From positions 48,617 to 112,616 of the IMG/VR virus record IMGVR_UViG_3300018411_000639: a stretch of DNA of 64,000 nucleotides; one strand, 5' to 3'. The stretch's first letter is position 1. Each line of letters starts with the position of its first letter. Both the position numbers and the translations under genes were made by a program. Below are positions 1 to 49,194 of the stretch, piece by piece. The notes under the pieces are model-generated. The model searched no databases and was not told where the DNA came from. It saw nothing but the letters and a program-made list of their open reading frames with translations. This DNA comes from a virus.

Positions 1-2060
1 TAGTTGCCTGCAATCTTCGGTGTCAGGTTGCTTGGCACTTGTGTCAGGGCTGCGTTCGTGCCGATGGTATTGATAGCTGTCTCCATAGTGATATTGGTGT
101 CTTTCAGGACATTGTAGAGTTCCTTGAATGTCGTCTTCTGTTGCGGAGATTTCAGTCTGCCTAGCACTTGATCCGCATTCAAGGTCTTGTCCAATTCACT
201 GACAGAGCCGTTCTTCACAAGGAACGCGATATCTTCCATTCGGGCCGGTCTGCCGAAGGTTTCTCTGAAGGCGATGTTTACGTCCGAGTAAGTGCCGTAC
301 ATCGTTTCAGCGTAACTGAATCCTCGCCCGTTCCCTAGTTGAAACATTCCCTCAAAGTTCCGTCGCGCGCTATCGGAAATCGTGCGGCCTACTTGTTGGT
401 CCACCATGGCAGAAGTCACCTCTCCGGGGTTCAACGGAATGCGGTTCACAGCTTGATTGGACTCCAAAGCGCTTCGCAGTTCCGCTTTCCGTCGGTACTT
501 GCTTCGACCCTGCAAACCAACTTGAGTGGCGTAAGAGCGCAAGCCTTTGAGTGGCATCTGGCTGAAGTCTGTCAGTTCCTCGGCTTCAACGACTGTATGG
601 ATGGAGAGGTCATTCTGGAACAAGGCTTGAATGTCGTCCGGGTTCGATCTGAAAATCGTACCTGTCACATTCTGATTTCCTTCGCCTGCTCCTCGGAACC
701 GAAGAGCGAACAACCCTTCTGCTCCCGGTTGGTTCTTCGCGACTCGACTTGCGATGCTCCCGTCAAGTTCTGCTGTTGGGATGAATTTCATCTCATCCAC
801 CTGATAGAACTGATTGCGGTTCAATGCGTAATCAAGGTGCGGCTGAATCTCTCCGTCAATCGCCATGAAGTCGTATCCGTCTTTGTCGATCTTAACCGCT
901 TTGTTGGCGAACACCACGCTCTCGCCCGCATTGTCTGGTGTGACGGTTCGGTTGTTTGGGTTGGAGCGAATAGCTTCCACACCTTCGAGGACGTCTTGGT
1001 AACTTTTCTGAGCAAGAGTCATGGTCGCTTTCGTATCGGATTCCGCAAGATGGGCGTCAATGTCGATACCGAAGGCCGAAGCCCACGAACCCAGACTACC
1101 CGGACTGCTTCCTGCACTAAAGCTTTCGATGCCTTGGTTGCTGGCGATACCGCTTAACGAAGACAACATTCTTCCTTGATTGGTTGCGCTCAGACCGGTT
1201 CTGGCATCATAGTGGTTCAGCGCCTTGACGGCAGGGATGCCTTGCTCCTGCAGCACGGCGTTCAGGAAAGGAATGTCATAGTTTGTGCCATTGTAGCTGA
1301 GAAGGGCTTTCCCCGGATTGTTGGTTTCGGTGATGGCGTTCCGTAAGGAAATAAGTTGCTGTCTTCCGACGTCTGTCTGGAGTCCTTGCTTGCGGCCTAC
1401 TTTAGCAAGATTGGACAAACCTGACCTTGCCCGACGAAGATCCGTTGGGTCAGGGTCGAGCAGTTTGCCCAGAGCGAAACGTTTGGAACGAGGATTCATC
1501 ACAAAGGCGTTGGGGTCAGAATAGACTGTCAGCCGTTTAATGGTGGACTGCTCAGCTGCACTCAACGTATCCCACCCATCTCCCTCTGCGCGGGCTATCA
1601 ACTCTAGGAAGCCTCTTCGTTGCCGTTCTTCTACACCAAAGGTAAGGACTTCGCTGATTGGCTTATTTGCCTGAATCATACCCGAAGCATTCTTCGTTAC
1701 CTGTTGCCGCACAAGAGCGACTTCCGTCATGGCCAGCAATCCTTTTTCGGACTCCGTTGCGTTTGGTCCGAAGTTCCCAAGGGTTTCCAAGTCGAAACCT
1801 GTAACGTCGCCTCCGTCCACCTCGAAGATGTTGCGGATGTTCTCTGCCTGCTTCTGGATTTCATTGAGGTCAAAACCTTTTGCTGCTTCAGGGTAAGTGG
1901 TGAACGCAAACGGCACACGGGATTGTCTGGCGAGAAGTTGGTTCAGCGTATCTCTTTGTTTCTGGTAAAGCTCCTGTGCGTCGGGATTATCCCACATTGT
2001 CCCAAGGTTGCTGTTGAAACTGCTTCTTGTTGTGTCTCGGTTGATGTCAGCTAAATACAT
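1..2060 (-). CDS. DnaQ-like (DEDDh) exonuclease-domain virion-region protein, partial
   Basis: This gene is open from an ATG at 2060 to the left edge, so at least 686 residues are encoded and the C-terminus is missing. An AAGGAGG site lies 7 bases before the ATG, and the stop of the giant gene is 20 bases upstream. The N-terminal half shows the three exonuclease motifs of the DnaQ/PolC-epsilon superfamily: FDLET (D90, E92), SYNGTNYDIPFL (N258, D262) and HLAESD (H337, D342), with normal spacing. The four acidic residues that bind two metal ions and the histidine are all present, so 3'-5' exonuclease activity is likely. Such domains usually serve DNA polymerases or RNA turnover; here the gene follows tail genes, so the product may be a virion protein. 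That placement is inference; the rest of the protein (about 350 to 686) is not recognised. Confidence 0.8.
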   Translation of the reverse strand, partial: MYLADINRDTTRSSFNSNLGTMWDNPDAQELYQKQRDTLNQLLARQSRVPFAFTTYPEAAKGFDLNEIQKQAENIRNIFEVDGGDVTGFDLETLGNFGPNATESEKGLLAMTEVALVRQQVTKNASGMIQANKPISEVLTFGVEERQRRGFLELIARAEGDGWDTLSAAEQSTIKRLTVYSDPNAFVMNPRSKRFALGKLLDPDPTDLRRARSGLSNLAKVGRKQGLQTDVGRQQLISLRNAITETNNPGKALLSYNGTNYDIPFLNAVLQEQGIPAVKALNHYDARTGLSATNQGRMLSSLSGIASNQGIESFSAGSSPGSLGSWASAFGIDIDAHLAESDTKATMTLAQKSYQDVLEGVEAIRSNPNNRTVTPDNAGESVVFANKAVKIDKDGYDFMAIDGEIQPHLDYALNRNQFYQVDEMKFIPTAELDGSIASRVAKNQPGAEGLFALRFRGAGEGNQNVTGTIFRSNPDDIQALFQNDLSIHTVVEAEELTDFSQMPLKGLRSYATQVGLQGRSKYRRKAELRSALESNQAVNRIPLNPGEVTSAMVDQQVGRTISDSARRNFEGMFQLGNGRGFSYAETMYGTYSDVNIAFRETFGRPARMEDIAFLVKNGSVSELDKTLNADQVLGRLKSPQQKTTFKELYNVLKDTNITMETAINTIGTNAALTQVPSNLTPKIAGN

Positions 2061-2079: not shown

Positions 2080-5000
2080 TTATACGAGTTTGGATGTGCG
2101 AATCTTCTCTTCGATTTCCTGTCGCTTATCCTTCTTCATTTTTACATCTACACCCACATCGCGGGTGCTGTAGCGGTAATCTACCTCTATATCTTCTAAG
2201 CCCATCTCGGTAAGGACATCCATAAGTTTGTTTCTCACCGTCAGGGCATTACTGCGGACATTCATTTTCGGAAGAGGGATTTCTCCTTCTGCATTGGCTT
2301 GGTCGATTTGATCCTGCCAAACATCGAACTCCCCGAAGTCCAGTCCCTGCTGCTTAATCATCTTGATTTTCACACTGTCGAGGTCTGTCTCCTCGTTCCA
2401 CCCTTCCCACTCTGCATCGGGCAGAACGTTCTCCTGGAAGTACGCATCCAGAGAAGGCTTATCTTCGACAGGCATTCCCCATGTACTCTCTAAAGCTCGT
2501 CGCAGGTACTTTGGAGCCAGACTCAGAATCTTGCCCTTCTCTTCTTCCGGAGCCTTCATAAAGTACTTCATGTACTGGCGGTCTGTCTTTGGTAACGCAG
2601 CTAGAATGTTGGCCAGAGGATCTCCACGATCATAACCGTACATCGTCTTCTCCGATTTGTTGTAGTAGTCGATGGCTTTGGTGGCATCTGAGGACAGGCG
2701 AGTGACGCTTCTGTCGCTTTGGATCTCGGTCAGCTCCTTATTGATTTGACCGACAATGAGTGACTGAGAGGCTTGCATGTCAACGTACTTTGGCGCACCT
2801 GTCTTGAACTCGAACTGATCTCTGTCTGCGTAGTTCATCTTGATGAATTTCTTGAAGTCCATCAGATCCCGTTTGCGGGCTTTCTTGTCCTGTCCGTTGA
2901 ACTCGGCACTCTTCATGAAGGCTTTCACGTCGAAGCCTTCTTCTTTGAGCGTCTTTTGTGCGTACTCCTCGTAGAGTCCGCGGTACTTCACGTATTTCAA
3001 GGTGTCGATGTATTCGTTCAGATTGCGTTCCTTCTGGCGTGTTTCTGGTATCCAGCGTTCGCCTGTCGTAGCTTCTTTTGTTCCGACAATAGCTTTCCCG
3101 ATGGCGGTGACAGAGAAACCTGTCAAGGCTCCCAATATCTTTCCGTAACGGGTAGATCCGAACGCTGACCCGAGCAACGTCCCCCAAATCAAACCACTTG
3201 GTCGGTTGATGCTTTCCCGAATGGCAGGAATCAGGAAGTCACGTACAGGATGCGTCCAGTTCTGGAAATCCTTGCCGTACACTTCTCGTTGCTCGTAACT
3301 CTCTGCCGCACTTCTTACCTGAAGGACTTTCGTATGAAACGGTGTGTTCAGATGGGACACAGCCTCCCATGCTTTCCCGAAGGCGATCTCCATCGGATTG
3401 TAGCGGGCATGGATGGATGCAGGAGTGAAGTCATCCTCTTTCTCCGTAGCAAGGCCGCGCTTCACCATGGTCTTGTTTACATTCAATCCGTTGCTGTAGA
3501 CCACGGCCCGAATACTGTTGACGGTATCTTTTGTGACCTGATTGGCTTCATCCATATCGTAACCGATTCTCACGGATCGACCGGGTTTCAGCAGCTGAGC
3601 CAGTTGCTTGCTCGCTTCCTCTCCCGTTCCATCTGCCATCGCTTCGCTTACGTGTACTCCGGCTAGTTTGATTGGATTGTCGGGCATCTCGTTCGCGATA
3701 AAGGTGTTGTTGCTCAGCATCTTTTTGACGGTCACAGTCTTCATTTCAAGGTTCGCCGTTTTGAATCGGTACGGATAAATCCGCATCGGCTCTTTGGCTT
3801 CGGTGACGCGATTGTCGATGGCAGACACTTCTTCTTGCTCTTCTGTTGTGATCTTCATCTTGGACAGCATAGCCTTTGTTTCTGCATATTCTCGCGAGTA
3901 CGGAGCCACATCGCCTAATATCCTCAGGCGGTCAATCGGATCGTAAAGTTCTCCTCTGCCAATCGACCCATCCGCTATACCGTTCCGGATGTAATCACGG
4001 GCTGTCCGAAGGTTATTCAAGGACTCCTGAAGCAAATCATCGCTATATTTGAATTTTGCTGTATACGTCTGATTTGGGTCGTCCCGGTTTATATATTGAA
4101 CATACCCGTTCCCCTTTTCTTGTCCTAGCGCCCACATATAATAATTCACTTGTTTGTGGTGGTCTGCTCGAGCCTCTCCTGTTTTGAGGACCTCTCTAAA
4201 GCCTTTGTCACTAATTGTCTTGATGTCGACTACACCTATCTTTGTTCTCGAAGATTCGTCATGAATGACGGCATCGTAGAAACCGAGGACGCCGTTCTCT
4301 TCGTCTTCGATCTTCCCTTCTGTATCAAGGGCGAGGCCGGACTTCAACCACATATCTTCTATTTTTTTGTGGTACTCCGTTCCTTCATCAACGATACTCT
4401 GCAAGCCTTCGTCCGTAATCGGGTCTTGGTTCAGCAAGTGCTTGATGATTTCCTCGGGTTCTTTTCCTAGAGTGGACGAACCGACACGAAGCGCCGTAGG
4501 GTCTTTGATGTTCCACGTTCGCTCGTAGCCTTCTCCAGGTAGTCGCATCTCTCCCTTGGCTACTTTCGTATAAGGGTCACCTGTTTGGAAGTTGGTAAAG
4601 TAATCCTCGCCCGGCATCCATTCTGGCATCGTGTTCTTGATTGGGTTGATGTACGCAACATCATTCCTTCTTTTCGGCAAGAAGCGTCGGAAGATTTCCG
4701 AGAACTCTCCTCCGAGCCCGCCAGCGTTCTGATCCCAGAACTGGCGATTGAACGACATAGACCAACCCGGGGTGTCTATAACTTCTTTTTCAGCTTGCGC
4801 TTCACCGGTAACGAATCCTTGGATTGCAAAGCCGTAAATACCAGCTATATCGCCCCACTGGTTCGCCTGTTCGCTCAAGCTATGCCCTACACTGTTTGGT
4901 GAAGCAACATCCCCTATTGTAGGTTCAGGCGTTACTGGTGGAGTCGTGTCCACTCGCGTGTCCGCACTTACAGCTTTGCTTAGCGCATACTTCCTTAGAT

Positions 5001-7812
5001 CGAAGTTGACTTCGGATAGGCCTAAGCTATTGTCTATGTTGATGACCTGCATTCCGCCGCTCGGCGTCTGGTAAACTTCGTAGGATTCATCCTTCGGTCG
5101 TGCGCCTGCAGTTGTGCCAATATCGACACCCAGTTCCTGTAGTTTTGGGGTCAGCAGATCGCCTGCGACAGCCGCATCGTCGGGCATCGCTCGTGATGGA
5201 GAACCTCCCGATGAAACTTGGGCTGCAGCTTCCTCTCCGCCTTCGGTAGAAGGAGCCGAACCCTGTTGCCCAGGAATCGCCGCTTGCAGACTCGGATCGA
5301 CAAGTGGTTCCGTGTAAGAGGTTGCTCCGCCCTTCTGCCAATACTCTTCATGCATCCGAAGACGCGGCTTGAGGATACGACCGATAGTAGCGCCGAAGGC
5401 CGGCCCGATGACAGGGATATTCTCGCCCTCTGGGGAAGTCATGAGGTATGGTCTGTCGTTGTAGTGCTTGCGGTCATAATAATACTTGTCGGTGACGAAG
5501 TGACGAATCGGAGCCAATGGCTGCGTGAGTGTCGGGAACCATGCGTTCTTGAAGTATTCTTCACGGCTTCCGAACTTACTGTCGGAGAATTCTGCGTCAC
5601 CCATGATTCTTCTGTAAAGGTTGGGTTGGAAGTATTGGATCTTTCCACCTGTCAAAGGCGTATTACCCATGTCCCAATAGCGTCCCTTTCTTACTTCCGT
5701 CATACCGCTCTCGTAATATTCTTCCCGTTCCTCTGTGGTGCTGGTCCAGTCTACGACGTTGATGCCGGGAATGTCTGCGATCTGTTCCGATCCTGGAGTC
5801 AGGTCGGCAATCTCTTTGGCGACTTTGGTGATGCCCAAGGAGTCCTTTACGCGATGCCAGCCGAGGTCAAAGTTCTTAACGTTCCTTGCGGTTCGCATCG
5901 TGATGTTGTCAGGGCTTCCGTTCTCGTCCTCGTCTCCGCCCTCGGTCAGGTAGTTCAGGTATTGATACCCCTGATAGGCTCCGTAGACAGGAAGGAATCG
6001 TTTCAGGACGAGGTTCGCTGCGATGTGTCCGACAGAGGCTTTGCTTTCGTTACTCATGCCCGGACCGAACATCCCGATAGCTTGATCCATTCGGTCAAAC
6101 ATGAAGTACGGCAAACTCGTTCTGGATGTGACGTTATCTCCGATGGTGTCCGGCCCGCCCTCTACCTTCTTGCGTCCGGCAACGAATTGGTGCGCCCAAT
6201 CTTTCAGGTCATACCCTTTGTCTTCTTTGAAGGCATCACGGAGGTTGTGGCTGTCACGGAAGGCGACAATCAGATCCTCTCCTTCTGGTGCGTTACCGAA
6301 AGCCCCCGATAGGTCGTGCTGAGATGTGACGGACTTGGACGCATGGAACATGTTCGTCTTGCCCAACTTGCGTCCCATCTCTTCGATGTAATGGTCCGGC
6401 TTGAAGATGTCAGCAAGACCTGTTTCTTGTTGATAGAGGTGCTCAACGGCCTTATCTTGAAAGCCGAGGTCAAGTGTTTCCATCATCTTGCCGTAAAGCC
6501 GTTGGTAGGTTTTACTTTTCTCATCGTGATGCTCGTAGTCCACCAAGTTCAGGTTTGCCATCTTCCGCATCTGATCGACTTCCCGAGGCAGCCCATACGG
6601 GCCCTGTTTCTCTTTGGGTATCTTCCAGACATGGTAGTTGCTCCCGACTTTCTCAAGACCACCCATATCATCGTTGATCCTGAACACATTCCCGTCCGAG
6701 AAGAGGAGAGGTTTGTCACCAAAGACATCCTTTATTTTGCTGTCTGTTCTGCCTGCGAGCTTGGTAACGTGAGGTTGGTACGTGTTGGCGTGCAGAAGTC
6801 CTGAAGATAGCTTGGTCCGGTTCATCTGATCGACGTCGAACAAGCGGAGCGGATTGATGCCTACAGCCGGAATCTTGAAGTCTGTTGCAAGGGAGTGGAC
6901 GAGATTATTCTTCGCCTTATCTGCCTTCCGGACGTCAATGAACTCCCCGAACTCGTCCACCATGATGTTTTTATCAAGCACGATGTTCTTGTACTTGTTA
7001 GATGAAAGCAGTGTTTCGGTTACGCCTTCCTCTGTGGTGTAGGCTGTGTTGATAAACTGATTGATCCTGTCAAGCGTCCCATCTTTGTCATCCAGACGGA
7101 TGCGGTCGGTACGGGATTGCACGCCCCCGTTCTTCGCTACATGGATAAGGTCTTCCAGTGTGGCAGAACGGTAGCCTGACCGTTTCATCTTCTTCTGCCC
7201 CTCTTCGGCTGCCTGCGTCATCTTTCTGCTGACATCCTGCATGAGTTGCGACTGGACAGGTTTCCTCGCCTGAGCGACCCCTGCTTTGTTCAGTCCATCT
7301 AAAGTTGACTTCATGCGGCCCATCTCGTACCCAAGGTCAGTGTCCGAGTAAGTATGGAGCGTAACGTCTTTTGCTGCCTCGGATAGCTTTTTGTTTTTGC
7401 TGATGACTTCCTTGTTCAGGTTCTTGATGTCGCGTCGTGTTTCTGACATCATCTCATTGAAGTTCCGGGGATTCGTCATGCGCTTCAGGTTGGCTTTCGT
7501 AGGCTCCATCCGCAACAGACTTGCCTTCGGAGCTTCGGTATTGTTCTTGCTCCAACGACGCATGGTCTGCATCGTAGTGTCCCCGTACCCCTGAAAGTCA
7601 TCTGCGTAGCGGAGCAGCTCTTTGATACCGCCTTTCAGCAAGCCCGATCGGTAAGCGGCGATACCCGCGATGCCGATAGCGGAAGCGATGAGTGTACGCT
7701 TTAGTGAGCTATTCTCTCGGGCCATACCTGTCGTATCGTCTTCCGTATAATCGCTATCTCTCGATCTGACTCTCTGTGTTCTTCGCTTTTCCCATTTGCG
7801 TTCGGATTGCAT
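2080..7812 (-). CDS. Giant 1910-aa protein at tape-measure position with PD-(D/E)XK and SNase-like domains
   Basis: The product follows two chaperone-like genes, where a tape measure protein is expected, and overlaps the preceding gene by 59 bp; GAGGGTG precedes its ATG. A hydrophobic helix lies at about 37-55 and a second hydrophobic Gly/Ala stretch near 1540-1575. Residues about 1100-1290 look like a RecB/Cas4-type PD-(D/E)XK nuclease: H1148 in EGTEYH, D1180 in GFYDAV, D1196 and K1198 in VVDIK, and Q1221 with YY in QVNYY. All these catalytic positions are intact. Residues about 1360-1480 resemble a staphylococcal-nuclease OB fold (IKLAGVHVSEA, then VNKTMVKRGLA), but the two catalytic arginines appear replaced, so this domain is probably inactive. 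The rest is not recognised. It could be a tape measure with embedded domains or an ejected internal virion protein. Confidence 0.75.
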   Translation of the reverse strand: MQSERKWEKRRTQRVRSRDSDYTEDDTTGMARENSSLKRTLIASAIGIAGIAAYRSGLLKGGIKELLRYADDFQGYGDTTMQTMRRWSKNNTEAPKASLLRMEPTKANLKRMTNPRNFNEMMSETRRDIKNLNKEVISKNKKLSEAAKDVTLHTYSDTDLGYEMGRMKSTLDGLNKAGVAQARKPVQSQLMQDVSRKMTQAAEEGQKKMKRSGYRSATLEDLIHVAKNGGVQSRTDRIRLDDKDGTLDRINQFINTAYTTEEGVTETLLSSNKYKNIVLDKNIMVDEFGEFIDVRKADKAKNNLVHSLATDFKIPAVGINPLRLFDVDQMNRTKLSSGLLHANTYQPHVTKLAGRTDSKIKDVFGDKPLLFSDGNVFRINDDMGGLEKVGSNYHVWKIPKEKQGPYGLPREVDQMRKMANLNLVDYEHHDEKSKTYQRLYGKMMETLDLGFQDKAVEHLYQQETGLADIFKPDHYIEEMGRKLGKTNMFHASKSVTSQHDLSGAFGNAPEGEDLIVAFRDSHNLRDAFKEDKGYDLKDWAHQFVAGRKKVEGGPDTIGDNVTSRTSLPYFMFDRMDQAIGMFGPGMSNESKASVGHIAANLVLKRFLPVYGAYQGYQYLNYLTEGGDEDENGSPDNITMRTARNVKNFDLGWHRVKDSLGITKVAKEIADLTPGSEQIADIPGINVVDWTSTTEEREEYYESGMTEVRKGRYWDMGNTPLTGGKIQYFQPNLYRRIMGDAEFSDSKFGSREEYFKNAWFPTLTQPLAPIRHFVTDKYYYDRKHYNDRPYLMTSPEGENIPVIGPAFGATIGRILKPRLRMHEEYWQKGGATSYTEPLVDPSLQAAIPGQQGSAPSTEGGEEAAAQVSSGGSPSRAMPDDAAVAGDLLTPKLQELGVDIGTTAGARPKDESYEVYQTPSGGMQVINIDNSLGLSEVNFDLRKYALSKAVSADTRVDTTPPVTPEPTIGDVASPNSVGHSLSEQANQWGDIAGIYGFAIQGFVTGEAQAEKEVIDTPGWSMSFNRQFWDQNAGGLGGEFSEIFRRFLPKRRNDVAYINPIKNTMPEWMPGEDYFTNFQTGDPYTKVAKGEMRLPGEGYERTWNIKDPTALRVGSSTLGKEPEEIIKHLLNQDPITDEGLQSIVDEGTEYHKKIEDMWLKSGLALDTEGKIEDEENGVLGFYDAVIHDESSRTKIGVVDIKTISDKGFREVLKTGEARADHHKQVNYYMWALGQEKGNGYVQYINRDDPNQTYTAKFKYSDDLLQESLNNLRTARDYIRNGIADGSIGRGELYDPIDRLRILGDVAPYSREYAETKAMLSKMKITTEEQEEVSAIDNRVTEAKEPMRIYPYRFKTANLEMKTVTVKKMLSNNTFIANEMPDNPIKLAGVHVSEAMADGTGEEASKQLAQLLKPGRSVRIGYDMDEANQVTKDTVNSIRAVVYSNGLNVNKTMVKRGLATEKEDDFTPASIHARYNPMEIAFGKAWEAVSHLNTPFHTKVLQVRSAAESYEQREVYGKDFQNWTHPVRDFLIPAIRESINRPSGLIWGTLLGSAFGSTRYGKILGALTGFSVTAIGKAIVGTKEATTGERWIPETRQKERNLNEYIDTLKYVKYRGLYEEYAQKTLKEEGFDVKAFMKSAEFNGQDKKARKRDLMDFKKFIKMNYADRDQFEFKTGAPKYVDMQASQSLIVGQINKELTEIQSDRSVTRLSSDATKAIDYYNKSEKTMYGYDRGDPLANILAALPKTDRQYMKYFMKAPEEEKGKILSLAPKYLRRALESTWGMPVEDKPSLDAYFQENVLPDAEWEGWNEETDLDSVKIKMIKQQGLDFGEFDVWQDQIDQANAEGEIPLPKMNVRSNALTVRNKLMDVLTEMGLEDIEVDYRYSTRDVGVDVKMKKDKRQEIEEKIRTSKLV

Positions 7813-8479
7813 TCATCACACCCTCATTCTGCCAATGGACGCCTCCGATGAGAGGGAAGTCCATGAAGTCTTTCTTCTGGTTAAATTCGTCTTTGAAGTA
7901 TATCATCGGATCCATTCCGTTAGCCCTCAGTTCATCCACAAACGCTTTGTTGTCAGAACCCGAGTTCTCGGCGTACTCCTCTACTTCTTGTTGGTTGGTG
8001 GTGAGTTGGATGTTATGACCTTTCAGGTTCAGGATTCTCTCTGCCCTTGCTACCGCCAGCATCAAGCGATCCCATGTCCAGTCTTCCATCTGCTCGTAGG
8101 AGTATTCCGGCATAGCCGCCTTGACGACAGCCATACACTCCTGGTCGAATTGCTTGGTCTTTCTCTTCCCTTTCTCGTAGGCATCCAGAACGGAACCCAA
8201 ACTGGTGAAGTTTGAAGCCTCGACGATCATCGGGCACGCATACGCCGACACCCCCGCAAGAGGGTAGTTCTCGAAGTCAATGTCTGCGGGCTCAAGGATG
8301 GCCGCTTGGCAGATGGCATCTTCCATGTCGTGGTCATCCTGCGTCAAGTTGGTGATGTCCCGATACTCTTTTCGCGTCAGGGTCCGAAAGACGAATTCTT
8401 TATTCTGAAAAAGGACATAAATCACTTTATGTCCTTCATGTGCTTCTTTGTGGTAAAACAAATCATAGATGGAGATCAT
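7754..8479 (-). CDS. Tail assembly chaperone-like protein B
   Basis: This 241-residue protein is a clear relative of the product of the next gene upstream: both contain VFRTL-R-EY, then a C-x(2)-A/T patch about 30 residues later and a P-x(3)-DF segment. Two such proteins between tail tube and the giant gene fit the position of tail assembly chaperones, which coat the tape measure before tube assembly. No frameshift site linking the two genes was seen; they are separated by 11 bp with a GGGGG site before this ATG. The 3' end overlaps the giant gene by 59 bp in another frame. The family assignment rests on position and the paralogy, not on a recognised domain. Confidence 0.65.
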   Translation of the reverse strand: MISIYDLFYHKEAHEGHKVIYVLFQNKEFVFRTLTRKEYRDITNLTQDDHDMEDAICQAAILEPADIDFENYPLAGVSAYACPMIVEASNFTSLGSVLDAYEKGKRKTKQFDQECMAVVKAAMPEYSYEQMEDWTWDRLMLAVARAERILNLKGHNIQLTTNQQEVEEYAENSGSDNKAFVDELRANGMDPMIYFKDEFNQKKDFMDFPLIGGVHWQNEGVMNAIRTQMGKAKNTESQIER

Positions 8480-8490
8480 TGCATTGCCCC

Positions 8491-9096
8491 CTATAATATC
8501 TGGATGGAGTAGTCTTTTGTGAATCCGCTATTCTCCATGACGATCTGTGCATAGGTTGACGGGATGCCCGCTTTTCCGATAGCCATCTTACGGAAGTCGT
8601 ACTTGCTTGGCCAAAGCGTACAGGTCTCACAAATGATTTCTTCTCTCTGCAGAGGGTCAAGGTTTGGGATAGCTGCGAGCTGTTTGTACTCGAAGCGGTT
8701 CAGAGTGCGGAAGACGAAGTACTGTCCCATGATTTCGATAGCCATAAGGTTGTAGTCTTCCCATTGGCGCTTCCACGTTTCGACTTGTGTGATGGTAGGT
8801 CCACCCACAAAGAGGGGTTCGTCATAAGCGTAGAGTTCAGGGTTGTCGCCGAGTTCTCCTTCTTCCGGCTCGCTTCTCAGCGTAGGTAGGTCTTCCCACT
8901 CTTCCGGTTCGTTCTGCAGATGAACACTTTCCTCGGTTTCTTCGCTTGTGTCGGAATTGACACCTTCAACTACTTCATTGTCATCTCGGAACGATGCGTA
9001 CAGGTCTTCGTTTGCTGCAGGTTCCTCACTGATTTGCTTGGATAGTTTTTCTTTGGCTTGCTTTGCTAATTGATCTAGGTTTCCTCCGCTGAACAT
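8491..9096 (-). CDS. Tail assembly chaperone-like protein A
   Basis: The 201-residue product has an acidic, low-complexity N-terminal half (residues 1-90, rich in Glu/Asp/Ser) and a C-terminal half homologous to the following gene (VFRTLNRFEY, then EEIICETC, then WPSKYDFRK). The paralogy and position upstream of the giant tape-measure-position gene suggest a tail assembly chaperone. The acidic N-terminal segment contains one copy of the 14-bp TGTC operator-like motif at 8949-8962, read as G-V-N-S-D-T. Function is inferred from location. Confidence 0.65.
   Translation of the reverse strand: MFSGGNLDQLAKQAKEKLSKQISEEPAANEDLYASFRDDNEVVEGVNSDTSEETEESVHLQNEPEEWEDLPTLRSEPEEGELGDNPELYAYDEPLFVGGPTITQVETWKRQWEDYNLMAIEIMGQYFVFRTLNRFEYKQLAAIPNLDPLQREEIICETCTLWPSKYDFRKMAIGKAGIPSTYAQIVMENSGFTKDYSIQIL
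8949..8962 (-). promoter_or_regulatory. Dispersed operator-like motif (intragenic, exact copy)
   Basis: TGTCGGAATTGACA on the plus strand, extended to GTGTC/GACAC arms (8948-8963). It lies inside the chaperone A gene. No convincing promoter is seen beside it. Confidence 0.6.
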
Positions 9097-9115: not shown

Positions 9116-9631
9116 TTAGTCCGTGCTTTCCTCAATATCCTGTGCAATGAAATCGTAGGTCTTGAAAAGGGGGTTCCCTGACGCATCCACTTCCACACCT
9201 GAACTACGCAAGAACACGCGCTTTAAGGTTGTGTTCAAGGGATGGTTCGCTCCAAAGTCCACTCGGATCTCCAGATCGTTCCCTCTCAATGCTTCCGTGT
9301 TACCTTCTTTGAAGAAGGGTGTATGTTTGGGTGTCCCATCGTACTTAGGAACGCCGCCCGCTTCCTCTTCTTGTTCATATCCGGCCATAGCGTTCGTAAC
9401 CAGAGCACCGTACTCTTCTTCCAGTTTAGCCTTTGTGTTGGCGTCCAGTCTCCCTGTTGCGGTCAGACCTTTCTTGGTCTGGTAAGCTTTAACGGCTTCC
9501 TCGTAAGCAAGGGTGTACTCTTTCCCGATCGCATACCCGTTCAAAGCCCCGACAGCGTTCAACATAATGCCCACTTCCTGAACCTCATCTGAGATATAAG
9601 GACTTCCGGGGACATACTTTAGTTCTGACAT
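9116..9631 (-). CDS. Tail-region protein with N-terminal peptidoglycan-binding domain
   Basis: This 171-residue protein begins with a PG_binding_1-type three-helix module (residues about 14-72; YEEAVKAYQTKKGLTATG followed by a D-x-T-x-KL helix is typical). The remaining 100 residues contain a beta-rich segment (DLEIRVDFGANHP) that is not recognised. It is the third gene in a row in this cluster with a peptidoglycan-binding module, after the two tube-like proteins upstream, and may be the small end piece of that set. It has its own likely promoter at 9656-9684. A virion role in cell-wall contact is inference. Confidence 0.75.
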   Translation of the reverse strand: MSELKYVPGSPYISDEVQEVGIMLNAVGALNGYAIGKEYTLAYEEAVKAYQTKKGLTATGRLDANTKAKLEEEYGALVTNAMAGYEQEEEAGGVPKYDGTPKHTPFFKEGNTEALRGNDLEIRVDFGANHPLNTTLKRVFLRSSGVEVDASGNPLFKTYDFIAQDIEESTD

Positions 9632-9655
9632 AATAGCACCTCTTTTATCTTCTCC

Positions 9656-9684
9656 ATTTTACCATTTAACTTTGACCTTCACAA
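9656..9684 (-). promoter_or_regulatory. Sigma-A-like promoter with extended -10
   Basis: On the minus strand: TTGTGA (9679-9684), 17-bp spacer, TAAAAT (9656-9661) preceded by TGG, an extended -10. It sits in the only sizeable gap of this cluster and would transcribe the peptidoglycan-binding protein at 9116-9631, the chaperone-like genes and the giant gene. No TGTC operator motif overlaps it. Confidence 0.5.
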
Positions 9685-9685
9685 T

Positions 9686-10549
9686 CTAGGCTTTGGGGAT
9701 ATATACGCCAGGTTCACCTGTTTTGGAGATGTACCCTTTTGTTCCGTTGCTGAGCTGGACATAGTACCAATCCGATACAGTGCGCAGAATCCTTACGTTA
9801 GTGGATTGCTCCAGTGTTGTGATGGTTGGGTAAGTCATACCCGGACCTGTCCGTATCGCCGTATCAGGAGCCACAAATAAGTTTGCGAACGACCCTGTGT
9901 TCAATCCTTGGATGACCGCAAGTGTTTCGGTATCGAGCACGCCGGATTGATTCAAGTTGTAGTCACTCTGGATTTGACGGACGACACCCTTTGTCTTCGT
10001 GTCGTAGAACCCGTTGATCTCGACAGCATAACCCAACTTCAGGAGTTGCGTCTGTGTTTTCCGTAATTCGTCGCTGAACTCTTTGTCCTCCAAAGACTGC
10101 AGGGAATTCAGTCTGCTTTCCTCTGCAGAGCTTGGACGGGATGAAGCTTTCCACGTAGAGCCGGACAAAGGCTGCAGGTGAGATAAGGCGCTCTCCACCC
10201 ATCCGGGGTAATTGTTCTTCTTCGCTTCCTCTGCAACTTCTTCATTCACTGAATCAACAATGGCTTCGATTTCTCTTGTGCTGTTCTCTTCGGGATTGTG
10301 GATCGGCACGCGCAACATCCCCACGACAATCCGATTCCCGATAGCGACATCATCAAAGGTACGAGAAGCGTAGCCAAAGATCGGTTTCAGTTGCTCCTGT
10401 ATCTGATAACTCAAGCCAGAGATATGCGTCAGCTTTTCCCCGTTGACGTAAATAGCGACGTCGGCGCCTGAAAAGTATTCCTCGGTAAAGATGTTATGCT
10501 CCCGCGTATCGCCAGAGTTGTACTTTAAGGTAAGGCGGTCATCTGCCAT
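9686..10549 (-). CDS. Tail-tube-like protein fused to peptidoglycan-binding and SH3 domains (paralog 3)
   Basis: Residues about 20-100 of this 287-residue protein match the N-terminal part of the tail tube (YFSGADVAIYVNG, then GLSYQIQEQLKPIFGYAS, parallel to FSGADLVVSFA and ISYAIQREKAPVFTLGS in the tube). They are followed by a PG_binding_1 module (157-216) and a C-terminal SH3-type module (225-287; IRTGPGMTYPTITTL, WYYVQL, GYISK). The start ATG lies directly at the end of the preceding gene, so translation is coupled. A tube-fold protein bearing wall-binding modules probably forms a specialised layer of the tail, perhaps near the tip; this is inference. A conventional baseplate hub would normally have an enzymatic domain, and none is seen. 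Confidence 0.75.
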   Translation of the reverse strand: MADDRLTLKYNSGDTREHNIFTEEYFSGADVAIYVNGEKLTHISGLSYQIQEQLKPIFGYASRTFDDVAIGNRIVVGMLRVPIHNPEENSTREIEAIVDSVNEEVAEEAKKNNYPGWVESALSHLQPLSGSTWKASSRPSSAEESRLNSLQSLEDKEFSDELRKTQTQLLKLGYAVEINGFYDTKTKGVVRQIQSDYNLNQSGVLDTETLAVIQGLNTGSFANLFVAPDTAIRTGPGMTYPTITTLEQSTNVRILRTVSDWYYVQLSNGTKGYISKTGEPGVYIPKA

Positions 10550-12207
10550 CAGTTATTCCTCCTTGTTTCAATGGTCCACTTCCACGGCGTTTCTCCTTGA
10601 GGGTAAACAATCAGCTCCACTTGAGTCGGTTCGCTTCCTTGGTCGGGATTGTAGAGGAGCGCATCCTGTACGTCCTGCAGCGTCATCGAACGCGAGGAGT
10701 TGGCCGGAATGATGATAGTCTTCGTAAAGACCTCCTTCTTGCCGTTAGCGTACTTGGCGATGGCGGAAACCTTCACCACTTGCGGTACGTCTTGGGTTAC
10801 GCAGTCCATACCGAAAGTCTGACTGACCTCTTGCATGTTGTCCTGATAGATCAAAGTAGACTTACCTGGTTGCTTTAAGAAGAGGTACTGTGTGCCGTTC
10901 ACCTGCTCTTGTTTCTCTAGTCCGGCTTCGCTTTCCAATGTCTGCCACAACTCCCGATCGACAACGCCATCAGCAGTCAGGCCGCTTTGTCGCTGAGCCT
11001 CTTTTACTGTGAGGATGGTAGCTTCATCCATTAGACCATTCACGACCACACGCCCTGCGATATACTCACGGTCAGCTAGGCTGTTGAGTGCCTTCTGTAG
11101 GACGGAAACCAAGGCCCCTTTATCGCCTTCCCTGAGTTCAGGGTAAGTACTCTCTTCTCTCTGATTCCTGTAAGCATAGACATCATATTTGGACACGTAG
11201 CCCATCCTTGTTTCGTACCAGTCGCCTTCTTCTCCTGCTATAACCAGATCCTCTTTGTACGGATAGACAGTCAATGGTACAGACAGAACCGAAGGACTCT
11301 CGTAAACGAGTGCGCCGCTTTTATTTGTCACGACAGCTGACGGATTGATTGGCGCGCCCCCGGCCTCATAAGACTGTAGCAACAGATAGGTTTCATCGTC
11401 CACACCGCCACTGACGCGCAAGCCCTGGCTGGATTGGAAGGCACGAACCGCATCATAAGTACGGGTGTCGTAAATGCCAGTAGAGACCAAACTGTCGTGC
11501 CCTGCAGCCCGCAGAAGGTCTTGCACTCTTCTGACATCCTGGCCACTCAAGGTGTTGGCCGGGTCCAGTGAGAGGTTTCGCTTCAAGTCCGTGCGGTAAG
11601 AGCGAAGATTCTCTGCATTCAAATCTTTGTCATAACGGATATCGAAGTCCGTCAAGGTTCGGATTGTGGCAGACCCTTGCCCCTCTGTACTGTTTCCGAA
11701 CGCTTCTCCTGTGAAATTCGTCAGATCCCTTGCAACAAAGCTGAAGGTGTTCTCTGTGAAGATATCCTCTATGGAAAGAACTTGTCCTTCGTCTGTAATA
11801 TCCACACCGTAAATGAACATCTGGACAGCTGAACCGTACTCATTAGCGCAGATGATCATGAGATCAAACAGAGGAAGTTCATCCGCCTTCAGTTTCCCGA
11901 ACTTCTTGAGCCATGGTGCTTGGTCCAGTAACTCGTTTACCCAATGCTGATTGATAAGTGTAAAGACCATCGTGCCTGCATAGATTCGCGTCCCACGGGT
12001 AAACCCGCCAACGTTGACCTTTCCGATCAATGGAACAGGCTTCTTGTCTCGGAACATGGAATAGGAGAAGGTAGTCAGAGAACCCAGTACGATTGGCTTT
12101 GTTTGTGGCAGTAAGGCAAACACCAGAGCATCCGTACCAGAGAAGGTTCGGTAGTATTTCGGAATAGATGAATCGGTCATTCGGCTCGCTTCGTTGTATT
12201 CTGGCAA
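10549..12207 (-). CDS. Tail-tube-like protein with two peptidoglycan-binding domains and an SH3 module (paralog 2)
   Basis: The ORF is open from an ATG at 12231, but that ATG overlaps the T-run of a terminator. AAAGGAG lies 8 bases before an in-frame TTG at 12207, which is the better start (552 residues). Residues about 15-165 match the tail tube (SYSMFRDKKPVPLIG, GFTRGTRIYAGTMVFTL, LPLFDL, CANEYGSAVQMFIYGVDI, FVARDL). Then follow PG_binding_1 (about 222-279), an SH3-like module (about 295-347) and a second PG_binding_1 (about 358-424). The C-terminal 125 residues are beta-rich and unrecognised. It is one of three tube paralogs in a row; its wall-binding modules suggest it sits at the cell-proximal part of the tail, which is inference. 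Confidence 0.78.
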   Translation of the reverse strand: MPEYNEASRMTDSSIPKYYRTFSGTDALVFALLPQTKPIVLGSLTTFSYSMFRDKKPVPLIGKVNVGGFTRGTRIYAGTMVFTLINQHWVNELLDQAPWLKKFGKLKADELPLFDLMIICANEYGSAVQMFIYGVDITDEGQVLSIEDIFTENTFSFVARDLTNFTGEAFGNSTEGQGSATIRTLTDFDIRYDKDLNAENLRSYRTDLKRNLSLDPANTLSGQDVRRVQDLLRAAGHDSLVSTGIYDTRTYDAVRAFQSSQGLRVSGGVDDETYLLLQSYEAGGAPINPSAVVTNKSGALVYESPSVLSVPLTVYPYKEDLVIAGEEGDWYETRMGYVSKYDVYAYRNQREESTYPELREGDKGALVSVLQKALNSLADREYIAGRVVVNGLMDEATILTVKEAQRQSGLTADGVVDRELWQTLESEAGLEKQEQVNGTQYLFLKQPGKSTLIYQDNMQEVSQTFGMDCVTQDVPQVVKVSAIAKYANGKKEVFTKTIIIPANSSRSMTLQDVQDALLYNPDQGSEPTQVELIVYPQGETPWKWTIETRRNN

Positions 12208-12235
12208 AGCATAACACTCCTTTCGTATCATATAG

Positions 12236-12260
12236 AAAAAGGCCGACCAAATGGCCGGCC
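12236..12260 (-). terminator. Intrinsic terminator after tail tube gene
   Basis: On the minus strand GGCCGGCC, loop ATTT, GGTCGGCC (one G-U pair), then TTTTTC. It lies 11 bp after the tail tube stop and just before the next gene, so it probably attenuates read-through and keeps the tube paralogs at lower levels than the tube. Confidence 0.75.
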
Positions 12261-12271
12261 CTGTTCTATGT

Positions 12272-13069
12272 CTATAAGCTTGCGCTTGTAGGTTGAACGC
12301 CTTTCAGCGAGCCACCCATTTCGCGACTGTAAACGCCACGAACTAGCGGAGACAATCGTCTAGCGATGTAAGTCATCTGTCTTTCCATCACTACCGTATC
12401 TACAGACACACCGGAACTTTCGTTCAAGATGTCGATGTCATAGATTTTTTGGAATGCGGTTTGACCGTACTCATTCGCAAAAGTCAGCGTTGCATCGAAC
12501 GGAGGCAATGTATCAGCGTACAAGATGTTTTCTCCACGAATCGGAGAGAACCCAGCCGGAACGTATACGTCCGCAGCGTCTTCATAGCTTTCAACAAAGT
12601 AACCTGTGTCGTCGAAGTTCGGTTTGCCGTTACTTCCGGGTTGAGCGTTCGCCACGATTTGGCTTGTTCCGCTGAATCCGTATCCTGGGTTGTTCAGGTT
12701 AGCAGCAGCACTAGCGTTCACATTCCATTTCAGCATATTTAAAGCATCCGTAAATGCTTCGGATTTTGCTTGCACCGCGTTGCCGGCAGCTGTAAACATT
12801 GCAGCAGGAGCCACTTTGTCCCAGATAGATTGCATAGCAGTGATCAAGGAATCGTGATCGAAGACTGCGAAGACCATAGAGCCAGCAATTCCGCGTTTTC
12901 CGCGAGAAAACGAACGAGCATCAGCAGATCCCAATGTGAATACCGGAGCTTTTTCACGCTGGATCGCATAAGAGATTTGTTGCAATTCACCTACGACTTG
13001 GTTTGCGAAGCTGACAACTAGGTCGGCACCACTGAAAGACGTTAAAGTGTTAATGGTTGGGCTTGCCAT
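12272..13069 (-). CDS. Tail tube protein
   Basis: This 265-residue protein follows the sheath gene and is the shortest, unadorned member of the three tube-like proteins. It has the pattern FSGADLVVSF, ISYAIQREKAPVFTLGS, FSRGKRGIAGSMVFAVFD, LPPFDATLTFANEYGQTAF and VMERQMTYIARRLSPL. In contractile phages the tube polymerises inside the sheath and conducts DNA. The start is an ATG with a good GGAGG. A hairpin precedes the gene and an intrinsic terminator follows, as expected for a very highly expressed cistron. Confidence 0.85.
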   Translation of the reverse strand: MASPTINTLTSFSGADLVVSFANQVVGELQQISYAIQREKAPVFTLGSADARSFSRGKRGIAGSMVFAVFDHDSLITAMQSIWDKVAPAAMFTAAGNAVQAKSEAFTDALNMLKWNVNASAAANLNNPGYGFSGTSQIVANAQPGSNGKPNFDDTGYFVESYEDAADVYVPAGFSPIRGENILYADTLPPFDATLTFANEYGQTAFQKIYDIDILNESSGVSVDTVVMERQMTYIARRLSPLVRGVYSREMGGSLKGVQPTSASL

Positions 13070-13144: not shown

Positions 13145-15508
13145 TTAAGAAGCTTTTAATCCTACAACAGTTGTGATGCGACGCAATTCTTGAGGAGGAA
13201 CGATCGTTAATTCGATACGAGCCTGACCTAAGACTTGGTCTTGGACGCTTGATGTTACGATGAAGTCGTAATCTAAGATCACGCCTTTTTCTTTCAAGAG
13301 ACCTAATCGTTTGCTGATAGCAGCAGACAATGCGTTCATTTGTTCAGTTGTGTTCGCTTCACCGATGTAAGGCTCGGATACGTCGCGGATTTGGTCAACG
13401 GTTTCACGGATTACTTTCGTTGTCGTCAAGCGCGCGTAGTCGGAACCAGCTGCGGCAGAGGTGATGCCATCTACAACGTAAGCAGCCCCTGCGTTTGCAC
13501 CTTGTTGGTCAAACTTAGTTTTGAACACTACGATTCGGTTGCCCAAGATAGCGTTCATTTGTGGGTTAGACAAGCGGTAACGCAAGCCTCTTACACCCGC
13601 AAGGCGTTTGTTCGCTGGAGCAGAATGAACCGGGATAACAGCGTTCAAGCCAACGTAAGCGACAGCAGGAGATCCGTAAGAACGTCCCAATGCTCTGCTT
13701 TGGTAAACTGGCTCAGGAGAACCGACTACTGTCAGGAAGCTACCCAAGTCGATTGGCTTACCATCGTTGTCGATGATGATGTTACCCACTTCATCGCGCA
13801 TCAGGTACGTGTTTGGCATGTTCGCCAATTTGTTCGCGTGAGCCTGAATGCCTGCCAAAGAAGTGTCTGTTGCAGGACGAACGTCGATTGCGCCCAAGGT
13901 AATCTTGCTGCGGTACGAAAGCACCGTGCAGAACAAACCTAGTTCGTAAGCGAAGTTCTGGTAGCGGCCAGGAAGAACGTCGTCAGCGTAAACGCCTAGA
14001 GGAACAACCCAATCCGTTTGGTAATCTTCTAGCAACTGGTAAGCCCCTTGTACGCTGACAAAGCCTTCACTATCACGGACACCAGATAGCGCCTCGAACA
14101 ATTTAGTCTTGTCTGTCGTAATGCCGTTGTCGCCACCGATGAAGTTTACGCCATCAGCGCCGCCCTCTGCCAAGTTAGAAACCAATTCTGATACCAAAGC
14201 GTCAGGGAAGACTGTTTTCGCGCGGTAGACGCTGTTGCTGTAGTCGCCGTTGATTGCTTCTACTAACTGACCGAAAGTAGGGTAGTCGATTGAAGTGAAC
14301 ACCATTGGTTGCTCAGCGACTTGTTTTCTCTTCGACAACGGTTTGATGATTTTCACAGTTTTACCTGCGACATCTCCGTTCGCGTCCAAGATATCCTCGA
14401 CGATGACCGTACTCTGGTTGTAGACTTCACCTGCGAAGTAAGAGGAGATTTCGATGTTGCGCTCTACCAACTGTACATCTTCGTAGCTGTACGTTACGGC
14501 AACTTGAGACCCTAGTGGGTAGAATTTCTTCTCCAATTTTACGGTTTTCGCTGTAGCGTCTACGATGAAAGCAATCGGGTTTGTCATCTCAACGCCATTC
14601 ACGTAAACATGAACCGATCCGCTAACTGGTGTGTGTGCGATGGTTTTGCTTTGCAAGCTAGTTGCAGCTGTGTAAGGTGTTACGCCGTCGCCTGTTTCAG
14701 TCGCATGGAATACGTCGGTTGTGATACCTGTGTAGTCCACTTTGATTTCGTCGCCCGCTTGTGCTGGGTTTCCGACTGCGTAAGTTGTGATTTTCACTGT
14801 GCGGTCTGTGACTTGGTAGCCGCCTTCAGCAATTTCCAATCCGCCGACAAACACATGGATAGCACCCTTTGGCTTGTAAGCTAACTCTAAGCTAGTTTCT
14901 TCATCCAACAAGTGCGTTTCCTTTACAACTTCGGTAGTACGGTAGTGATCGTATTGCACTTGCAAGGAAGCCCCTGCGTCGCACACATTAGGAGCCAAGA
15001 TGACTTGACCATCCGTTTCGTTTACGGTCACACCACCAGTGATCAATACACCTTTAGCGTAAACTTTAGTAGAAGCCTGTACGATGGTACCGTTTTGCAA
15101 CTGGATAGTAGTCAGGTCGTTACCCTCTGCATAGCCTAATTCTTCCGTTGACGTTTCTACGGTAGTAAGTGTTTCTGGCGTCTTCTTCAAAGACGTTTTT
15201 GCACGTGTACCAGTTACACGCATCAAGCGAATATCTCGTACCCCGTTCTCGTATAACTCTTTTGCAGCCTTAACTAAGGTTGATCCGTTAGGGGCTCCGT
15301 TTGCGTTGATCTCTTTACCGAAGACTGTCTCCAGTGTGTTGATGTCAATCGCGACAGGTTCCATTACGGGACCGTCTACTGCTGTTCCCAGCAATAGCAC
15401 GCTATCTGTCTGAGCTGCAGAGATGTCACTGCGTAGAGCCAACCCACCATCTTTAAATTCAACCAGATGGCCCGGTAAGTTCGGGTATTGGTTCGTCATG
15501 CCAGCCAT
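13145..15508 (-). CDS. Tail sheath protein
   Basis: This 787-residue protein has the usual contractile sheath plan: an N-terminal segment (SVLLLGTAVDGPVMEP, then FG-x-E, KAAKELYENGVRDIRLMRV), a central core (NFIGGDNGI; WVVPLGVYADDVLPGRY) and the C-terminal polymerisation domain (VIRETVDQIRDVSEPYIGE, ILDYDFIVTSS). It is longer than usual because residues about 125-355 hold an insertion with at least two domains of the type VFVGGLE-x-GYQV and VHVYVNGVEM-x-V-L. The same domain type occurs in the fibre proteins of this window; on the sheath it would decorate the outer tail surface. A second sheath-like gene lies two genes upstream. Confidence 0.88.
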   Translation of the reverse strand: MAGMTNQYPNLPGHLVEFKDGGLALRSDISAAQTDSVLLLGTAVDGPVMEPVAIDINTLETVFGKEINANGAPNGSTLVKAAKELYENGVRDIRLMRVTGTRAKTSLKKTPETLTTVETSTEELGYAEGNDLTTIQLQNGTIVQASTKVYAKGVLITGGVTVNETDGQVILAPNVCDAGASLQVQYDHYRTTEVVKETHLLDEETSLELAYKPKGAIHVFVGGLEIAEGGYQVTDRTVKITTYAVGNPAQAGDEIKVDYTGITTDVFHATETGDGVTPYTAATSLQSKTIAHTPVSGSVHVYVNGVEMTNPIAFIVDATAKTVKLEKKFYPLGSQVAVTYSYEDVQLVERNIEISSYFAGEVYNQSTVIVEDILDANGDVAGKTVKIIKPLSKRKQVAEQPMVFTSIDYPTFGQLVEAINGDYSNSVYRAKTVFPDALVSELVSNLAEGGADGVNFIGGDNGITTDKTKLFEALSGVRDSEGFVSVQGAYQLLEDYQTDWVVPLGVYADDVLPGRYQNFAYELGLFCTVLSYRSKITLGAIDVRPATDTSLAGIQAHANKLANMPNTYLMRDEVGNIIIDNDGKPIDLGSFLTVVGSPEPVYQSRALGRSYGSPAVAYVGLNAVIPVHSAPANKRLAGVRGLRYRLSNPQMNAILGNRIVVFKTKFDQQGANAGAAYVVDGITSAAAGSDYARLTTTKVIRETVDQIRDVSEPYIGEANTTEQMNALSAAISKRLGLLKEKGVILDYDFIVTSSVQDQVLGQARIELTIVPPQELRRITTVVGLKAS

Positions 15509-47994: not shown

Positions 47995-49194
47995 TTAGCG
48001 TTTCAACAATACGTGTACAGAACCAACCACGCCTTTGAAGTCCATGTATGTTGGAGTTCCGTAGTGGAAGGCTTTGAAGTCAGCTGTTACTTCTTTAGTA
48101 GCATCTAACTCTTCCAAGTTCACTGTGATGATACCTTTACCATAGTCGATTGTTACGCGCTCAGCTGCAACAACCACGCCTGCGATCTTAACAACGACGC
48201 CTTCTTGCAAGTTCTTCATTACGCCGCCTGCGTAATCTTTCGCTTGGAACGCCATCAAAGTGCCTGCTTGAACAGTGTCACCTACAGTACCCAGAGCCAT
48301 GTCTGTGTATTGCGTGTCGTTCTTGCCGTAGCCTAAGAAGTTACCTGTTCCGTCGTGTAAACCAGGAATACCAGTTGGGTTGTTGATCAACGAAGACTGG
48401 TACTGTTGGAACGTAGTGTTTCCTTCAGCATAAGCTGGGTCGTAAGGGTAGCCACCGTCTGAAGGCAGGTTTGAAGCGCCTGAACGGTTTAAGAATGCGT
48501 CGTCTTCTTTACGAGCTGACTCATCCCATAGCATCCACTGCATCCAGCCCCAAGGCTCAGAGTTCATGTCAGAAGCAAGTACCTGACCCACGATGTCGAT
48601 TGGGTTGTCAGTGTCTTTGATCCACTTAGTCAAACGACCAGATGGAGTCGCTTTAACGTAGTCGCCATCTTGTACGCCGGCACCGATAACAGAACCCCAA
48701 GGCATTTTCAGGTCAACTGTTAATGCTTGTTCTTCTGCCAGGACACCTTGTTTCGTGAAGCGAGCATCCGCTTCTACGCCTGGGATGTACGGCAATGTGA
48801 TGTAGTCTTGTGTGATGATAGAAGGTTGATTTCCACCAAAACGGTCTGACTGCAAGTAGTCTTTTGTAATGTTGTAAGGAACAACCCCGATTGGGTTCTT
48901 CGTTAAGGACATACCCGGTAATGTTAAAGTTGAACGGAACTTCTTAGTGACAAAGCTCTTAGAAGCTTTACCGTTGGCAACCACACGGCCTTTAGGGATA
49001 ACAACGTCTGTCATACCTGCGCCACCGTATTCGTAGTTCATCAGAACGCCGTTACGGAAAACACCTGACATATCTTGGTCTTGGAAGCTAGGGTCCAGTA
49101 ACCATTCTTCAGCTGGGGAAGCATGTCCACTCTTCACTAGGTGGGTATTGCTTCTTGAGCCTTCTACTCTATTAAAGCCTTCGTATAATGCCAT
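47995..49194 (-). CDS. Head protein, probably capsid decoration or minor capsid protein
   Basis: A 399-residue protein between the protease/scaffold and the major capsid gene. It is beta-rich (MTDVVIPKGRVVANGKAS; LTVDLKMPWGSVIGAG; TLMAFQAKDYAGGVMKN) with an acidic-aromatic middle (WGWMQWMLWDESARKEDD). In many large phages a gene here encodes a capsid decoration or capsid-stabilising protein, but no family is recognised. The abundance of Gly and short strands fits a surface protein. It ends before a hairpin that precedes the capsid gene. Confidence 0.6.
   Translation of the reverse strand: MALYEGFNRVEGSRSNTHLVKSGHASPAEEWLLDPSFQDQDMSGVFRNGVLMNYEYGGAGMTDVVIPKGRVVANGKASKSFVTKKFRSTLTLPGMSLTKNPIGVVPYNITKDYLQSDRFGGNQPSIITQDYITLPYIPGVEADARFTKQGVLAEEQALTVDLKMPWGSVIGAGVQDGDYVKATPSGRLTKWIKDTDNPIDIVGQVLASDMNSEPWGWMQWMLWDESARKEDDAFLNRSGASNLPSDGGYPYDPAYAEGNTTFQQYQSSLINNPTGIPGLHDGTGNFLGYGKNDTQYTDMALGTVGDTVQAGTLMAFQAKDYAGGVMKNLQEGVVVKIAGVVVAAERVTIDYGKGIITVNLEELDATKEVTADFKAFHYGTPTYMDFKGVVGSVHVLLKR

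Follow-up and report, generated by a model that had tools for sequence, protein, structure and literature searches.

A Cas4-like nuclease domain in a gp145-like tail protein and a predicted DEDDh exonuclease domain in the neighbouring tape measure protein of a 0305phi8-36-like myovirus lineage

The locus considered here raises the question of what an apparently intact DNA-cutting domain is doing inside a giant phage tail protein, and whether that protein is the tape measure protein (TMP) of the tail or a neighbour of it. The window, by which we mean the whole stretch of DNA that was analysed, comprises 64,000 nucleotides of an IMG/VR virus record (IMGVR_UViG_3300018411_000639, positions 48,617 to 112,616).

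Identity and neighbourhood of the 1910-residue protein

In phage 0305phi8-36, the tail genes include a paralogous pair of tail chaperonins, gp143/gp144, and orf146, which encodes the TMP (Hardies et al., 2007; PMC2147016). The genes of the window that bear on the comparison are the following.

3..2060, minus strand: TMP, first 686 of 3024 residues, in the position of orf146 (PMC2147016); no cysteine; the gene continues outside the window
2080..7812, minus strand: gp145-like virion protein of 1910 residues with no cysteine, assigned from its translation, homologues, synteny and cysteine count
7754..8479, minus strand: tail chaperonin-like gene 2, PHROG 29368, cross-matching 29362; position and paralogy as for gp143/gp144 of 0305phi8-36
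8491..9096, minus strand: tail chaperonin-like gene 1, PHROG 29362, cross-matching 29368
13145..15508, minus strand: tail sheath protein, PHROG 16991 (E=1.8e-208), in the context of a contractile tail

The two genes at 7754-8479 and 8491-9096 match each other's PHROGs, as is expected of a paralogous chaperonin pair, and the 1910-residue protein is encoded directly after them. A first-pass annotation of this DNA had placed the protein in the tape-measure position. This label does not hold, as the protein is not the product of the length-setting giant gene downstream of the chaperonins; synteny and the neighbouring gene, whose 3024-residue product (full gene G000:C1:41602-50676) matches orf146 of 0305phi8-36 in position, rule it out as the TMP. 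At the textbook value of 0.15 nm per residue, the 3024-residue TMP would span about 450 nm.

Moorella phage MTATph1, Bacillus phage KLEB27-3 and Acinetobacter phage ME3 encode relatives of the 1910-residue protein, and gp145-family loci number more than 100 in IMG/VR, where a first scan gave 187 loci, of which 80 were retained. In the relatives examined, the order chaperonin, chaperonin, gp145-like gene, giant gene is conserved, and homology to the family extends along the protein. The KLEB27-3 and ME3 homologues carry structural annotations, which together with Hardies et al. bears out the assignment of the family to the virion and tail that had been made at first pass. By homology and gene order, the protein is thus the gp145 homologue of a 0305phi8-36-like myovirus lineage, encoded between the chaperonin pair and the TMP. 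The genome that we take to be 0305phi8-36, partly on its gene order (L014, 218,948 bp), has a gp145 that is like the window protein in gene position and in carrying a nuclease domain with an intact motif, but differs in having an extra insert, with 35-48% identity between the two.

Two side observations concern this neighbourhood. One member of the gp145 family (L025:2927-11230) is about 2764 residues long, some 800 residues longer than the others, with no SNase fold recognised in it. At 9116-13069, flanked by the chaperonin pair and the sheath gene, the window holds genes with peptidoglycan-binding or endolysin-like PHROG matches, which have in common an N-terminal domain shared with the gene at 12272-13069 (PHROG 9206/34314); these are possibly tail-tube paralogues with wall-binding domains.

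Nuclease folds in two adjacent proteins

Within the gp145-like protein, two folds lie next to each other.

3943..4491, minus strand: PD-(D/E)XK (Cas4/lambda-exonuclease-like) domain, residues ~1108-1290, from sequence profiles and a structure model
4369-4371, 4273-4275, 4225-4227, 4219-4221 and 4150-4152, minus strand: catalytic codons of H1148, D1180, D1196, K1198 and Q1221, respectively
3433..3786, minus strand: staphylococcal-nuclease (OB) fold, residues ~1343-1460, with the active site lost family-wide

The first-pass annotation had proposed a PD-(D/E)XK nuclease with all five of these catalytic residues intact, and this is what was found: the residues are as stated (H1148 in GTEYHKK, D1180 in GFYDA, D1196/K1198 in VDIK, Q1221 in QVNYY), and sequence profiles, structure prediction and Foldseek agree on the fold. 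The domain matches PHROG 1706 ("CRISPR/Cas system associated", E=4.3e-14, and 5e-16 in a second search), the Cas4 exonuclease PHROG 1990 (1.3e-6) and a RecE-like family (0.0036), and the nuclease domain alone as query scores at the cut-off for Pfam PDDEXK_1. Alignments were needed for the more distant comparisons, as neither a PDB search with the single sequence nor a scan of viral contigs with the single protein gave a match; with 12 homologues aligned, the best PDB profile match was the Cas4 protein SSO0001 (4ic1, 3.8e-5). An AlphaFold2 model of residues 1061-1485, built from 19 aligned sequences, has a mean pLDDT of 89, and its nuclease half is matched by Foldseek to LHK-Exo (3e-6), Cas4 4ic1 (9e-6) and lambda exonuclease (1.5e-5), while the best match among viral structures is A7KUR9 (E=3e-45). 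All five catalytic residues are kept in 10 of 12 distinct homologues at 25-48% identity, which excludes chance.

The core fold, the D...(D/E)xK motif and the RecB/Cas4-type H and Q place the domain in the PD-(D/E)XK superfamily, and its sequence similarity to Cas4 is above chance. Cas4 and the phage Cas4-like exonucleases of PHROGs 1706 and 1990 are the closest sequence family, with which it has in common the H, D, (D/E)xK and Q motifs and an N-terminal SSxxG motif. The embedded domain differs from Cas4 in lying inside a 1910-residue structural protein and in having no cysteine, so that the C-terminal Cys motif, and with it the four cysteines that hold a 4Fe-4S cluster, is absent; it is expected to be without the cluster for this reason. 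None of 13 embedded nuclease domains contains a cysteine, as against 4-6 in stand-alone relatives of type B, arranged in the C...CxxC...C pattern of the Fe-S Cas4 enzymes. Judged on these motifs, the embedded nuclease is Cas4-like and not an Fe-S-type Cas4. Lambda exonuclease and LHK-Exo, among the best structural matches, are free recombination enzymes with 10-17% sequence identity to the domain. Profiles and model together show that the domain belongs to the same family as the stand-alone phage Cas4-like exonucleases, with its predicted catalytic centre intact.

The adjoining fold was likewise described correctly at first pass, as an SNase-like domain without its catalytic arginines. It is matched by Pfam SNase (E=0.0033), by SNase PDB profiles (E~1e-4) and, for the second part of the model, by staphylococcal nuclease in Foldseek (7e-6; target-normalised TM 0.58-0.71). 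Read by eye, a profile alignment shows other residues at the positions of SNase D21, D40 and R87, and no conservation of R35 and E43 across the gp145 family. On this alignment the fold has clearly ceased to be an enzyme and is retained for structure, and its role beside the nuclease would be a structural one. A staphylococcal nuclease domain has also been described in the baseplate hub of BtI1, a homologue of gp147, where its utility was called obscure (PMC2147016); this too is a nuclease-fold domain in a tail protein of the same lineage, but the protein is a different one.

The neighbouring TMP holds a domain of its own.

951..1901, minus strand: DEDDh exonuclease domain in the TMP, residues 54-370, with D90/E92 in FDLETLG, D262 in NGTNYD (NGTNYDIPFL) and H337/D342 in HLAESD

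In this protein Pfam gives a weak RNase_H_2 match. In an alignment of 11 TMPs with 17-29% identity, eight columns are invariant, among them those of D90, E92, D262 and H337, and D342 is nearly so, so that the ExoI DxE, the ExoII D and the ExoIII HxxxxD are all in place; members of this set match RNase_H_2 (three), RNase_T (two) and a phage DNA-polymerase exonuclease PHROG (four). A PDB profile search placed the DinG exonuclease first, followed more weakly by T7 polymerase and TREX1. The model of the domain (pLDDT 88, pTM 0.85) has the expected fold, and Foldseek matches it to RNase T (2.6e-5), TREX2, TREX1 and ExoI. Conserved motifs and modelled fold thus show that the TMP contains a predicted DEDDh exonuclease domain of the 3'-5' type. 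The earlier remark that a DNA nuclease would be unusual for a TMP understated the case, as the actual TMP, next door to the protein then meant, has a DEDDh domain as well. The motifs lie mid-TMP in L015, L016, L014 and MTATph1 (weakest in L014 and L016), and the domain was not recognised in the TMPs of L117, L025, L030 and ME3. In KLEB27-3 it is present though the nuclease site of gp145 is empty.

In a literature search with subscription journals mostly outside its reach, there was no published Cas4-like domain in gp145-type proteins, that of 0305phi8-36 included, and no published DEDDh domain in TMPs. Injected enzymes, virion nucleases such as T4 gp4, and TMPs with enzymatic domains are each already known. 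The TMPs of mycobacteriophage TM4 and of SPO1 (gp11.2) likewise carry an enzymatic domain on a tail-core protein, but these are peptidoglycan hydrolases for the wall and not nucleases.

Loss of the embedded domain and its free relatives

The state of the nuclease site in the gp145 family was scored by the distance between conserved flanking anchors, which comes to 1-11 residues where the site is empty and to 174-239 where it is filled. The site is filled in 12 distinct divergent lineages, including L014, and is empty in most sampled relatives. A remnant matching the end of the nuclease is left in L016, with 27 residues, in L026, with 77, and, less clearly, in L020, with 23; since L016 falls within a group of filled alleles in the flank tree, it is best read as a deletion. 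That tree rejects the union of all filled alleles in one clade (AU p=0.009), though its deep placements are unsafe owing to the long branches of L117 and L004. The embedded domains themselves cluster with weak support (70/61), and nuclease and flank distances are correlated (Mantel r 0.79, a value reached in 0 of 5000 permutations; 0.88 when the two deepest rows are left out). An old domain that was lost several times would fit this pattern, and a second gain is possible given the long basal branches.

In a few alleles the domain is present in degenerate form, with H replaced by R and DIK by QIQ in L088/L121, and H by Q in L089. Given the degenerate alleles and the mostly empty sites, the domain cannot be needed for any step that is essential throughout the lineage, and the nuclease is accessory, having been lost or inactivated repeatedly across lineages. 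As a side observation, L121 comes from an Acholeplasmataceae assembly, and L088/L121 offer a natural inactive version for comparison.

A separate observation was made in KLEB27-3, where the gp145 homologue is split by an HNH-like endonuclease gene (L003:21521-22620, gp031-gp033) that seems to lie in a group I intron (Rfam Intron_gpI, 19.6 bits, under the gathering threshold). The interruption lies about 30 codons upstream of the nuclease site, and each half has its own annotation as a structural protein.

Members of the embedded-domain family also occur as a free gene of 252-289 residues in KLEB27-3, MTATph1, G012, G013 and G019, all of which have an empty site. The KLEB27-3 gene (gp092) is annotated as a Cas4 family exonuclease, and that of MTATph1 (CDS0075) adjoins the DNA polymerase. 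This free type is found in 0/11 filled-site records as against 5/14 (one-sided hypergeometric p ~0.04, with kinship uncorrected and several records being fragments). A strict rule by which the nuclease is either embedded or stand-alone was clean with the A4 profile and was broken under a broader one, which recovered a third, related stand-alone type, common to ME3, in the filled-site genomes G009 and G010; the freshwater clade has neither this type nor the free type of the embedded family. The distribution gives a hint that the embedded domain may have taken over the job of a free recombination-type exonuclease.

Most genomes, filled or empty, also have a different free PD-(D/E)XK gene, here called type A. 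In the clade closest to the window phage (L143, L144, L145, L148; G002-G005), the type A protein has seemingly lost its (D/E)xK motif, which reads LMKFR, IIKFQ or VMKFN.

Cysteine exclusion and possible roles of the two nucleases

The gp145 family contains 1 cysteine in 37,347 residues (19 records) and the TMPs next to gp145-like genes contain 5 in 46,882, giving 6 in 84,229 for both, as against 357 in 65,352 residues (0.55%) in neighbouring ORFs; these counts treat related sequences as independent. A control set of three TMPs, lambda gpH, T4 gp29 and SPO1 gp11.2, has no cysteine in 853, 590 and 890 residues, respectively. The simplest reading is that cysteine-poor chains cross the tail tube and cell envelope unfolded and refold afterwards. 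The main argument that gp145 is a protein of the tube lumen, an indirect one, is the near-absence of cysteine that it shares with the TMPs. Low cysteine could instead reflect exposure outside the cell and not transit, and gp145 could be a tail-tip or neck protein. Two hydrophobic segments of the gp145-like protein, from a Kyte-Doolittle scan, are given below.

3082..3138, minus strand: Gly-rich hydrophobic segment, residues 1559-1577 (Kyte-Doolittle, a weak predictor)
7636..7692, minus strand: N-terminal hydrophobic segment, residues 41-59 (Kyte-Doolittle, a weak predictor)

Segments similar to the Gly-rich one are present in most relatives by the same weak predictor, and ejection, which had been suggested at first pass, is compatible both with such segments and with the shared near-absence of cysteine.

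Two large Cys-free tail-core proteins with seemingly working DNA-cutting enzymes suggest, from sequence and models, that the lineage may deliver nucleases with its genome. In the explanation that best joins these results, the gp145-like protein would reside in the lumen of the tail tube, or closely associated with it, alongside the TMP; both would be threaded unfolded through tube and envelope and refolded on the far side, so that a gp145 nuclease and a TMP exonuclease, ejected with the DNA at infection, would process DNA at the entry point. We give this account about an even chance of being correct. The embedded enzyme would then be a virion-delivered version of the recombination or replication exonuclease that sister phages encode as a free gene. 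As is general for TMPs, a virion is expected to hold a tail-core protein in low copy number. The most likely target would be the ends of the incoming linear genome, because of this expected copy number, the location of the proteins at the point of DNA entry, the recombination-type relatives and the terminal repeats of 0305phi8-36. Such repeats have been reported for that phage (PMC2147016).

The main alternative target is the host chromosome or competing DNA, in which case the ejected nuclease would be a conflict effector that attacks prophages, plasmids or superinfecting phages. Its main point in favour is that the domain is patchy, repeatedly lost and sometimes inactivated, as is typical of such effectors, and there is a precedent in the polyvalent/MuF-fused proteins, large multidomain proteins delivered with DNA, some of which have DNase domains (PMC5512222). 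These differ from the gp145-like proteins in their domains and in having no TMP neighbourhood, and TMPs are not mentioned in that study (PMC5512222). The closest relatives of the embedded domain are recombination-type exonucleases, one of them encoded beside replication genes, and a few copies per virion would suit a local job better than the degradation of a chromosome; we therefore consider the attack on host or competing DNA unlikely, though a serious rival to processing of the phage's own ends.

It could also be argued that the domain no longer cuts DNA and persists as a DNA-binding or spacing module whose intact residues are a remnant; the SNase fold beside it has lost its enzymatic function and survives as structure, and catalytic residues are gone from two allele groups. 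This is improbable, given that in most lineages, at 25-48% identity, the catalytic positions rank with the best conserved of the alignment, and that purifying selection, in the one pair tested, is as strong in the nuclease (pN/pS 0.18) as in its flanks (0.22 and 0.17). Quite improbable, too, is a role in assembly, in which the nuclease would trim or release DNA at packaging or head-tail joining with no delivery to the cell. A virion-associated nuclease required for packaging does exist in T4 gp4, a TnsA-like head completion protein (PMC7824862) with a restriction-endonuclease fold like that of the gp145 domain; T4 gp4 is however a head protein, whereas the gp145-like gene belongs to the tail module, in its chaperonin-TMP block, and its product shares the TMP's near-absence of cysteine. 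That the domain is a selfish, homing-endonuclease-like insertion at a hot spot, as the HNH gene of the putative intron just upstream of the site in KLEB27-3 might suggest, is hardly credible, since the nuclease tree tracks that of the host protein, the remnants point to loss and not to recurrent insertion, and Cas4/RecB-like exonucleases are, to our knowledge, not known as homing enzymes.

Returning to delivery with the genome and use at the entry point, a more specific version can be put forward only tentatively: the 0305phi8-36 lineage would possess a pair of tail-core exonucleases of presumed opposite polarity, threaded unfolded and used at entry, one of which would be a free exonuclease that moved into the virion and lost its iron-sulfur cluster.

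The known enzymes of TMPs, such as those of TM4 and SPO1, cut the cell wall. If the present account is true, predicted working exonucleases in two neighbouring tail-core proteins would mean that the apparatus for passing DNA into the cell brings along enzymes for acting on that DNA. What giant proteins of this kind do in jumbo phages, apart from determining the length of the tail, is an old question, and it would become one that point mutants can address. Scarcity of cysteine, for its part, is an easily scored signature by which further ejected proteins of tails might be recognised.
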